The notes beneath the pieces are model-generated. The model saw only the letters and a list, made by a program, of their open reading frames with translations. It searched no databases and was not told the origin of the DNA. This document shows positions 8,270-17,858 of a stretch of DNA of 23,944 nucleotides, piece by piece (positions within the stretch are counted from its first letter, which is position 1; each line of letters starts with the position of its first letter). This DNA is from a virus. Location: the IMG/VR virus record IMGVR_UViG_3300037573_000265, positions 1-23,944 of that record. One strand, given 5' to 3'. The position numbers were made by a program, and so were the translations under genes.

Positions 8270-8303
8270 AGGGGCACCATAACTGGTGCTCCTAAACTTT
8301 TTT
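8270..8303 (+). terminator. Rho-independent terminator of the nrd operon
   Basis: A 10-bp stem with one G-U pair, AGGGGCACCA (8270-8279) with TGGTGCTCCT (8284-8293), encloses the loop TAAC and is followed by AAACTTTTTT. It is the strongest hairpin in the window and separates the nrd operon from promoter P4. Confidence 0.9.
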
Positions 8304-8324
8304 AAAAAAAATTTCGTTTTATTG

Positions 8325-8355
8325 TTGTCAGAACGATATAGGTAGAGTATCTTTA
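8325..8355 (+). promoter_or_regulatory. Bacteroidota-type promoter P4, giving a nearly leaderless mRNA
   Basis: TTG at 8325-8327 (a second TTG at 8322), a 20-nt gap, and TATCTTTA at 8348-8355 preceded by GTAGAG. The start codon of the next gene is at 8360, only 4 nt past the -7 box, so the transcript should begin at or within a few bases of the AUG. Confidence 0.75.
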
Positions 8356-8359
8356 TGTC

Positions 8360-8929
8360 ATGGAAATAAAATCTACAAAATTATCAAACGGAGTAACATA
8401 TGGAAATGTAAGTTTCAAATGTGAATTAGAAGACAGAGATAGAAACAACTGTTCAGTAAGATCTCTTGCAACAGCTTTTGAAGTACCTTACAAGAAAGCA
8501 TTTGATGGTGCTGAAATGATTTGGGATAGACAAATAAATAAAGGAGCTAGTTGTTTTGGAGTACACAAAATGGCAAACATGGGATGGTTATGGGATAAGC
8601 AAATAACTAAGATGGGACAGATTGTAAAGGATGAAGATGATAATGAAATGTTCTTAGGAGAAAAGAAGTTAGGAAAATGGTATCCAGTTGGAGGTGGTGA
8701 GAGAAAGTTTAGAAAGATGAGTACTGGAACGTTTTTTAAGACGTATAAGGAAGGAACTTTTATTGTTAGTGTAAGAGGTCATATGTTTACAGTAAAGGAC
8801 GGAGAAGTGTTAGGAAACTATGAAGATGCTTTAATGTTGAAAAGACCAATCGATGTTGCATTTGCAGTTGGAAGTGTAGCTAACAGAGTAATCAAACCAA
8901 AAAGAATTAAAGGAAAAAGAGTTAGATAA
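8360..8929 (+). CDS. Papain-like (C39/C1-fold) cysteine peptidase candidate
   Basis: The layout fits a small papain-fold protease. An N-terminal NNCSVRSLATAF helix carries C31, a typical nucleophile at a helix start. About 110 residues later, GTFIVSVRGHMFTVKDGEVL places H141 in the typical VxGHxxxVxDG strand, and D147 or N153 could complete a triad. The middle segment (WDKQITKMG ... KKLGKWYPVGGG) is not recognised and the C-terminus is strongly basic (KPKRIKGKRVR). Targets could be phage structural proteins or a host factor; nothing in the sequence decides this. The start is fixed by promoter P4, since no nearby in-frame ATG follows. The stop overlaps the next ATG (TAATG). Confidence 0.6.
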   Translation: MEIKSTKLSNGVTYGNVSFKCELEDRDRNNCSVRSLATAFEVPYKKAFDGAEMIWDRQINKGASCFGVHKMANMGWLWDKQITKMGQIVKDEDDNEMFLGEKKLGKWYPVGGGERKFRKMSTGTFFKTYKEGTFIVSVRGHMFTVKDGEVLGNYEDALMLKRPIDVAFAVGSVANRVIKPKRIKGKRVR

Positions 8930-9309
8930 TGAACACAGAACAGAAACATAAGTTAGTAAAAAATTTATCAATCATAGGTTGTTTCGTTGCAGCCTTTGAT
9001 TTAGATAAAGAAGAAACGTACAATCGCATTGTACAAATGATAGAGAAGGGTGAGGAAGTAATAACTTTCAAAGAATGGACCAAGTATCCAACTAAAAGTT
9101 TGGGTTGCTTAGATCGTAAGTATTGGGCCAAAGGAGGAAGTGTAATGAGAAGAATGAGTTTAAAGACATTCTTAAAGGATTACAAAACTGGATCATATTT
9201 AGTAACATTAGATAAAGAAATGATCTATGTGAACAATGGAATGATAGCATTTGGAAAAGATGTTTCATTAAGATCAGGAATAGTTAAGGCAATAAAAATA
9301 ACTAAATAA
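8929..9309 (+). CDS. Paralogue of the upstream cysteine peptidase lacking the catalytic residues
   Basis: This 126-aa protein aligns with the preceding one. RRMSLKTFLKDYKTGSYLV matches RKMSTGTFFKTYKEGTFIV, and VAAFDLDKEET matches LATAFEVPYKK. In the same alignment the catalytic C31 becomes S14, and the catalytic H141 becomes E97 (LDKEMIYVNNG against VRGHMFTVKDG). The family fold is probably kept while proteolysis is lost. The region between the two blocks is shorter than in the partner. The gene starts inside the upstream stop (TAATG), so the two are translated as a coupled pair; complex formation or regulation of the active partner is a reasonable inference. It may equally be a decayed duplicate. 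Confidence 0.7.
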   Translation: MNTEQKHKLVKNLSIIGCFVAAFDLDKEETYNRIVQMIEKGEEVITFKEWTKYPTKSLGCLDRKYWAKGGSVMRRMSLKTFLKDYKTGSYLVTLDKEMIYVNNGMIAFGKDVSLRSGIVKAIKITK

Positions 9310-9318
9310 ATATATAAG

Positions 9319-9603
9319 ATGGCAGACAAGAAAGTAGAAAGTGTACAAGAAGAAATATTATTTGAATTAATGGTATTGGCAAGTGAAGCACCAAAGGAGG
9401 ATAGATTAATTAGCATTGCAACAATAGCTGCACTAACTCAATTCACTCCTGAGGTGACTGGGTACTTTATAGAAACAGCTCAGCAAATATTTGCTAAGGA
9501 AGGATATGATGCAATGATGAAAGTGTATTCAGAATTATTGTTTGCAAACCACAAAGAGGAGTTGGCTCTTGATTTGAATGAACTATCAATAAAGCTATCA
9601 TAA
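9319..9603 (+). CDS. Hypothetical acidic helical protein, 94 aa
   Basis: Predicted to be almost entirely alpha-helical and acidic (VQEEILFELMVLASEAPKEDRL, ALDLNELSIKLS). No membrane segment, signal peptide or catalytic motif is seen and the family is not recognised. It follows the pseudoprotease gene by 9 nt, and its stop overlaps the next start in a TAATG junction, so it belongs to the P4 operon. Confidence 0.7.
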   Translation: MADKKVESVQEEILFELMVLASEAPKEDRLISIATIAALTQFTPEVTGYFIETAQQIFAKEGYDAMMKVYSELLFANHKEELALDLNELSIKLS

Positions 9604-9974
9604 TGAAAGAAGACTATGCAAAAGTATCAATGATGCTTGATAAGGAATACACAGATGCACAATGTAGAAATTTAGTCAACTGTATCATGAGTGAAAATAT
9701 TGGCCCAGATGATGTTTGTAAAAGTCTTGTTGGGTTAGGAGTTAACTTGAATCTGTCTCATGAGTTAGTAGAGGAAAGTGAAATGGATGAAGATGGAGAG
9801 CTTGAGACTTTTGAGACAAGTGAGTTTCAGAACTTTGTTAATGAATCGATTGAGTCATTATTATACAATAAGGATACTATGAGTTGGGTAAAGTTTTATA
9901 GGAAGACTTTATTACAATTTGAGAAATATGAACTATTACACATTTTAAAATTAGAAAAAACATGGAATATTTAG
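9603..9974 (+). CDS. Hypothetical acidic protein, 123 aa
   Basis: The N-terminal 60 residues are helical with two cysteines (AQCRNLVNCIM). The centre has an acidic linker (EESEMDEDGELETFE) and the C-terminus is a more basic aromatic helix (MSWVKFYRKTLLQFEKYELLHIL). The family is not recognised. It starts in the stop codon of the upstream gene and its 3' end overlaps a further small ORF by 13 nt, an arrangement typical of translationally coupled phage early genes. Confidence 0.7.
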   Translation: MKEDYAKVSMMLDKEYTDAQCRNLVNCIMSENIGPDDVCKSLVGLGVNLNLSHELVEESEMDEDGELETFETSEFQNFVNESIESLLYNKDTMSWVKFYRKTLLQFEKYELLHILKLEKTWNI

Positions 9975-10099: not shown

Positions 10100-10101
10100 A
10101 G

Positions 10102-10133
10102 TTGCTTTGTATGTTCCAAAAAGAGTATCTTTG
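10102..10133 (+). promoter_or_regulatory. Bacteroidota-type promoter P5 (replication operon)
   Basis: GTTGCTTTG with TTG at 10102-10104, a 21-nt gap, then TATCTTTG at 10126-10133 preceded by AGAG. It is the closest match in the window to the Bacteroidota TAnnTTTG box. The ATG at 10155 follows with a leader of about 17 nt. Confidence 0.8.
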
Positions 10134-10154
10134 TGAAAAGATAAAACATATATT

Positions 10155-10400
10155 ATGAAAAATTTAATTATAAGTGTAGTATTAATTCTAGGAATATTTA
10201 CAAGTTGTGAACAATTTGATGAGATAGATGAGTGTGGAACCATAACCAACTATGATTATGAATATAGTAACTTTGTTGACCAATTTGGAAACCCAACAGA
10301 TACTTATTACTATGTATGGTTAGATGGAAACAAACACAGAGTGAACTTTGCTACATTCAGTGAAGCAAGATTAGGAGATGTAATTTGTATAGAATACTAA
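10155..10400 (+). CDS. Small secreted lipoprotein, 81 aa
   Basis: MKNLIISVVLILGIFTSC is a textbook lipoprotein signal, with the lipidated cysteine at residue 18. The mature 63 residues are acidic and Tyr-rich (CGTITNYDYEYSNFVDQFG, DTYYYVWLDGNKHRV) and look beta-stranded. No family is recognised. It is the first gene after promoter P5 and lies 5 nt ahead of the replication initiator gene. Small early lipoproteins in phages often block superinfecting phages at the envelope (known for T5 Llp and others); that role is inference here. Confidence 0.8.
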   Translation: MKNLIISVVLILGIFTSCEQFDEIDECGTITNYDYEYSNFVDQFGNPTDTYYYVWLDGNKHRVNFATFSEARLGDVICIEY

Positions 10401-17486: not shown

Positions 17487-17858
17487 ATGTCATACAAAGA
17501 CAAGTTAAAATTAATAATTGTTGTAGGAGTTATGCTGTTGAGTTTAACTAGCATCTCTGCACAAAGTAAGTTTAGTATGTATACTCAATCAAGTGTACTA
17601 AATTTTAATAGAGCAAGTTTTGCTCTGGATGTTAAATACAAATTGAATCCCAAATATACTATATCAAGTTGGTCAGCAATGACTCTTGGCAATACTATAC
17701 AGATGGGTGGAGATTATAAAACTACAAATGTTTTGTTGAACTATTCTTCAAACAATAATAAAACAACTCTTAGTAGTGGAGTATCTCATTTGAATGTACC
17801 TCAATGGAATAGAGGAAGAACTGAATTTGTAATTAAGTACAGAGTAAAATTATTTTAA
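17487..17858 (+). CDS. Small exported beta-strand-rich (outer-membrane barrel-like) protein
   Basis: The N-terminus (KDKLKLIIVVGVMLLSLTSISAQS) is a typical signal peptide with a likely cleavage after SAQ or ISA. The remaining ~97 residues alternate polar and aromatic/hydrophobic residues in short strands (ALDVKYKLNPKYTISSW, TTNVLLNYSSNNNKTTLSSGV) and end in VIKYRVKLF, a terminal-Phe ending common in outer-membrane barrels. Its size would allow only a few strands, so it may oligomerise or be periplasmic. It lies 1 nt before a membrane glycosyltransferase gene. A role in altering or exporting surface glycan, or blocking phage receptors, is inferred from that pairing. Confidence 0.72.
   Translation: MSYKDKLKLIIVVGVMLLSLTSISAQSKFSMYTQSSVLNFNRASFALDVKYKLNPKYTISSWSAMTLGNTIQMGGDYKTTNVLLNYSSNNNKTTLSSGVSHLNVPQWNRGRTEFVIKYRVKLF

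Follow-up and report, generated by a model that had tools for sequence, protein, structure and literature searches.

Two adjacent genes of a phage genome encode related proteins of the family phrog_3754, of which the first (copy 1) would be a cysteine hydrolase and the second (copy 2) a pseudoenzyme acting by independent binding. This reading of the pair is given a probability of about 45%.

The window, that is, the whole stretch of DNA analysed here, is a virus record of 23.9 kb. A 78.5 kb IMG/VR contig carries the same sequence: over 15,327 bases, 8 positions differ, all of them in the last bases before the contig end. By portal protein, the nearest named phages are those of Cbastvirus: identity reaches 68% for the Cellulophaga phages phiST, phi13:1, and phi19:2 and 59% for Tenacibaculum phage Larrie. 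These relatives point to a host of the Flavobacteria type.

The gene pair and its transcription unit

The pair lies after an A1-like DNA transfer gene and before replication initiator-like and primase/helicase genes. The features of this region are as follows.

8270..8293, + strand: terminator-like hairpin (intrinsic) closing the unit of the A1-like DNA transfer protein; stem of 10 pairs, 6 of them G-C, followed by a T run
8322..8357, + strand: promoter motif TTG-N20-GAGTATCTTTATG in front of copy 1; 0 mismatches, by construction, because the motif was read off this site
8360..8929, + strand: copy 1, predicted papain-like hydrolase of phrog_3754; 189 aa, C31 and H141 intact
8450..8452, + strand: TGT codon of C31, the first residue of helix 31-40 and predicted nucleophile
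8780..8782, + strand: CAT codon of H141, the first residue of strand 141-146 and predicted catalytic His
8927..8931, + strand: TAATG junction, in which the stop of copy 1 overlaps the start of copy 2
8929..9309, + strand: copy 2, paralogue with neither Cys nor His (predicted pseudoenzyme); 126 aa, S14 and E97
9319..9603, + strand: first gene after copy 2 in this unit; 94 aa, no family match
9603..9974, + strand: second gene after copy 2 in this unit; 123 aa, no family match, joined to the preceding gene through TAATG
10100..10135, + strand: next copy of the promoter motif, preceding a small lipoprotein-like gene (10155-10400) and bounding the unit of copies 1 and 2

Both open reading frames are intact and run head to tail in different frames with the A of TAA and ATG in common, which confirms the adjacent genes sharing TAATG (8360-8929 and 8929-9309) described in the initial annotation. 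The residues that it had named are likewise found in the sequence: C31 and H141 occur in the first gene, and the alignments place S14 (codon 8968-8970) and E97 (codon 9217-9219) of copy 2 in their columns. The junction was also considered as the sign of a special pair, and this was rejected. TAATG is found at 2 of the 32 adjacent gene junctions in the window, the other one at 9603 in the same operon, so the junction between the copies is ordinary for this genome.

That the pair heads an operon, as had been proposed, is supported by the terminator-like hairpin and the promoter motif in front of it. With up to three mismatches, TTG-N20-GAGTATCTTTATG matches seven times in the window, compared with a shuffle mean of 1.59. 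The exact core AGTATCTTTRTG occurs four times, always on the + strand and upstream of genes, a count that includes the site at 8322-8357 from which the motif was read; it is found 0 times in each of 200 Markov sequences. A shorter core, AGTATCTTT, also precedes the gene phiST gp070. The motif stands in front of the gene at 17487 as well, upstream of the portal region, and is therefore no marker of early genes. Its TATCTTTR part resembles the -7 element of Bacteroidota, TAnnTTTG. Since copy 1 starts a few bases past the promoter core (8346-8362), a leaderless transcript is possible for this gene. As a phage-wide motif, GTTG...GAGTATCTTTRTG is seen at 1059, 8346, 10124, 13872, and 17305 of the window and at 2517 of the IMG/VR locus L091, with a core common to phiST.

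Family membership and predicted fold

The phrog_3754 profile matches copy 1 at 5.9e-14 and copy 2 at 7.5e-6, and in BLASTP the two copies align with each other over 45 aa in the C-terminal half (E 8e-7). Copy 2 is also recovered, at 2.6e-7, by a profile from which it had been omitted. When all window rows are removed, copy 2 scores 14.2 bits, against at most 10.1 for 2000 shuffled versions of it. Judged from these comparisons, the homology of the two copies is above chance, and the signal of copy 2 is real but weak without the window rows. The view of the initial annotation that the two proteins are related is thus borne out by BLASTP, by phrog_3754, and by the profile searches.

Residue states were surveyed in an alignment of 100 member ORFs from 84 loci, with same-phage duplicates counted and L002-L007 and L040 excluded. 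Of these ORFs, 82 have both the Cys and the His (live members). Another 13 have lost the Cys and kept the His, with Ser (9) or Asp (4) in the Cys column; they come from Pootjesviridae records and from loci fetched with their Cys-less copies. The Ser/Glu state is confined to two ORFs, copy 2 and its identical twin, and the remaining three are fragments. Copy 2 accordingly fits its initial description as a paralogue devoid of the active site, with S14 and E97 in place of Cys and His. In seven aligned members C31 and H141 are invariant. A third catalytic residue, Asn or Asp, was looked for after the His: 11 residues on, most members have Asp; copy 1, L106, L104, and Vibrio 193E37-1 have Gly-Asn. 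Compared with the family at large, which is found in Pseudomonas, Vibrio, and other phages and in which a few members are annotated as 'peptidase', copy 1 has the same N-x-C motif and the same short hairpin after the His. Members mostly occur singly and are live, whereas copy 2 has neither Cys nor His.

All 51 members scanned match phrog_3754, and none of them reaches E 0.01 with any peptidase family of Pfam or NCBIfam, copy 1 itself giving 0 families. The profile check suggested at the outset (peptidase C39, C1) thus found no support in Pfam or NCBIfam, and, as neither database gave a peptidase match, no annotated function backs hydrolase activity. Assignment to peptidase C39 or C1 by sequence was rejected, as there was no match in Pfam, NCBIfam, or PDB sequences; the sole two rows of the PDB sequence search are centrin (E 0.78) and caltractin (E 0.99). 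A single weak PADLOC methyltransferase row for copy 1 (E 0.00094, 16.5 bits) was taken as chance because the match spans residues 78-135, among which is the least confident part of the copy 1 model.

Members of phrog_3754 occur in 122 Pseudomonas phage records (one DNA search), in phages of Rhizobium and Vibrio, and in numerous uncultured phages. Two scans of prokaryote genome contigs, with one peptide pattern each, gave no host-encoded homologue, and for this reason the family looks viral. The locus L125 (2160-2687) holds a live member with a signal-peptide-like N-terminal stretch, which lies upstream of an A1-like gene sharing 80% identity with that of the window; judging from this N-terminus, some members may be exported. 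Another live member, at 14211-14921 of L104, has a zinc-ribbon-like C-terminal extension of the form CxxC...CxxC.

In the predicted structure of copy 1 (pLDDT 71.8, pTM 0.68), C31 is the first residue of its helix and H141 the first of its strand. The model of copy 2 reaches pLDDT 77.0 and pTM 0.71; both models were built with family alignments, which pull copy 2 to the family fold, so that its model is not independent. A plain Foldseek search of the PDB yielded no match below E 0.001 with either model. With VIA-align, papain-like proteases, deubiquitinases, and effectors prevail among the 50 matches listed for copy 1, the best of which has a Z of 5.3 (rmsd 3.6, 120 residues aligned), a moderate value, as is any Z under 8. 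The best fold match of copy 2 is YopQ (Z 7.8, rmsd 3.1, 108 aligned), also moderate by the same mark, followed by the viral deubiquitinase M48 (6.3), the PCAT1 peptidase domain (5.9), and AvrPphB (5.3). Against predicted viral proteins, Foldseek returned 18 matches to copy 1 under 0.001, among them phiST gp070 (M4SL82) at E 2.6e-5. These matches favour a papain-like fold for both copies, as a predicted fold class, but fall short of proof. The fold match, together with the intact Cys and His, supports the papain-like nature that the initial annotation had ascribed to the first protein.

On these grounds, copy 1 would most likely be a small cysteine hydrolase with catalytic activity, as deduced from model and residues. 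Its chemistry may be other than proteolysis: Z values are similar for proteases, deubiquitinases, the C39 peptidase domain, OspI, and Tae4. That copy 1 is a different papain-fold enzyme (an amidase, a deamidase, a deubiquitinase-like enzyme, or an acyltransferase) is judged to stand somewhat short of an even chance; the question concerns chemistry only, and either answer is compatible with the preferred reading of the pair.

Cys-less members in related phages

In phiST, the slot of the pair is occupied by gp070, a gene of 142 aa behind A1 with the same promoter core upstream. Its product contains no Cys at all and has Asn at the His position. It matches the family profile at E 9e-8 in the C-terminal half only, and it is the sole family member found in the phiST genome. 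In the PHROGs database it belongs to a family of its own, phrog_20338, and reaches phrog_3754 only at E 0.053. Thus it resembles the window pair in its place behind an A1-like gene and in its promoter core, and copy 2 in particular in having no Cys and a replaced His, but it stands alone. The uncultured relative L106 has a single live copy in the slot, and the gene next to it is unrelated. In L104 and L105, a live copy lies elsewhere and is extended at the C-terminus by CxxC-CxxC. No member was found in the whole genome of Larrie or in the stretches fetched from L103, L107, and L108.

A conserved slot behind A1 was rejected: among the best 80 of 346 A1 loci, three have a member within the fetched flanks; several loci end soon after A1. 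The three are the twin of the window (L124), the L106 contig (L128), and L125, in which the member precedes A1. It had been proposed to check whether the pair is kept together in other phages, and in close relatives it is not: L106 is live-only, phiST is dead-only, and Larrie has no member. Since the live and the dead forms can each stand alone, the live/dead pair is not an obligate unit.

The Pootjesviridae offer a different picture. Three places match in 21 of the 30 records that respond to the Cys copy of Atu_ph04; its Cys-less copy, used as query, retrieves 22 records, 21 of them with three places and the other a Thermus phage, all counts including GenBank and RefSeq doubles. Residues were read in phiM9, RL38J1, RHph_Y68, RHph_N34, Atu_ph04, and the IMG/VR loci L087-L090. 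These genomes have one Cys copy, one copy with 'PSS', and a third, Cys-less copy where the locus reaches; L090 shows only two Cys-less copies in the available stretch, and for Atu_ph04 the reading covers two of the three places. The copies lie within about 6 kb, and in the annotated records one to three genes separate the Cys copy from the nearest Cys-less one. The sets (phiM9, RL38J1, RHph_N34, Atu_ph04) thus resemble the window in combining Cys and Cys-less copies in one genome region. They differ from it in that their Cys-less copies keep the His and in that the copies are not directly coupled. In the Atu_ph04 record, which has 48 features in 143 kb, both papain-like copies are unannotated (NC_070890.1, 106000-112500; L018).

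Selection on these copies was estimated by the Nei-Gojobori method in matched genome pairs. The dN/dS of the PSS copy is lower than that of the Cys copy in three of three pairs (0.075 vs 0.24, 0.033 vs 0.168, and 0.087 vs 0.126), rough values in that two of the three pairs share RHph_N34 and some dS are near or above 1. The third copy gives 0.11 and 0.09 in other genome pairs, and the PSS copy 0.211 in the pair phiM9/L090, where no Cys copy was compared. Because purifying selection is stronger than on the live copies in the three pairs, the Cys-less copies do not look like decaying genes; by this measure, they are maintained in Pootjesviridae.

In the best tree of 38 family members, copies 1 and 2 are united with support of 96/48, a grouping to be read with the warning that long branches meet there, and together they adjoin L106 (94/83). 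The branch of copy 2 is very long, at 4.07 changes per column. A highly divergent member is also seen in OLIVR5, a phage of Pootjesviridae (L017, 2361-2780), where it is the sole one, is live, and has a branch of 2.94. At least three changes between the live and dead states are needed on the tree. A single dead clade is barely rejected (p-AU 0.0455), and the alternative that joins copy 2 to phiST gp070 is above rejection (p-AU 0.312). From these topologies, Pootjesviridae and the Cbastvirus group probably underwent their losses independently.

Possible roles of the second copy

In the preferred reading, copy 1 would be a catalytically competent member of phrog_3754, a widespread family of small phage papain-fold cysteine hydrolases. 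Copy 2 would most likely have arisen by tandem duplication of copy 1 or of a close ancestor and would then have lost both catalytic residues with its fold kept. It would act without catalysis, by itself binding a protein of the host (or of the phage). The target would probably be the same as, or related to, that of copy 1, and copy 2 would not be an obligate regulatory subunit. A host target for the family is suggested by analogy: for other peptidases, it has been argued that those with a patchy distribution and a variable copy number among phages have host proteins as their targets (PMC7824862). Pseudoenzyme paralogues in general are already known. Papain-like superfamily members with Ser for the catalytic Cys and a retained fold are reviewed in PMC10318531, and SERA5 is likewise reported to have lost the Cys and kept the fold (PMC4671257). 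The proteins named there are not from phages, and copy 2 differs from them in that the His is missing too.

A regulatory heterodimer, in which binding of copy 2 regulates the activity or specificity of copy 1 while translational coupling sets the stoichiometry, would account for the adjacency and the TAATG overlap, and the recurrence of live and Cys-less copies together in Pootjesviridae (three places in each of the 21 records) speaks for it as well. The initial idea of a live and an inactive copy occurring together therefore holds for these distant phages, but it fails in the closest relatives that bear the slot, where L106 and phiST have one form each. In addition, only 12 of the 84 loci hold two or more member ORFs (including the window, its twin, Pootjesviridae loci, and L080, in which one gene is read as two pieces), and the intervening genes in the annotated Pootjesviridae records also count against it. 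The heterodimer is on balance considered unlikely. Copy 2 could also be in decay, as the only relative of it that was found is identical. As a non-functional duplicate heading for loss, it would explain its very long branch, the loss of both catalytic residues, its shortness relative to copy 1, and its absence from relatives. This is nevertheless regarded as improbable: the ORF is intact in a compact operon, the fold is still predicted, the Cys-less relatives elsewhere are conserved, and all five Cellulophaga phage records that contain the phiST dead copy have it intact and in identical form, a weak point given that these phages are near-identical. The dead-only slot of phiST and the conservation of Cys-less copies elsewhere place independent binding by copy 2 ahead of a role as regulatory subunit, and both ahead of decay.

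More broadly, and tentatively, since we hold it to be somewhat unlikely in its full form, phrog_3754 may be a phage-specific papain-fold family in which catalysis was lost, probably three times, and the dead proteins were kept, in Pootjesviridae under tighter constraint than the live ones. If this is true, viral pseudoproteases would bind a host factor and thereby disarm it, and live/dead pairs like that of the window would hit one target in two ways, by cleavage and by sequestration. A recurrent, constrained loss of the Cys would give a direct handle on the function of the family, and the binding partner of the conserved dead copies would therefore be a good candidate for its target. With phiST and its Cellulophaga host in culture, a dead-only member is open to phenotype tests.

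The family is widespread, yet it has no assigned function. Literature searches, with most subscription journals outside their coverage, found no paper on it. In Pseudomonas phage records, the same gene region is labelled 'fiber protein' in H95, H192, and H216 and 'peptidase' in H73 and H208; the former label is probably an error.
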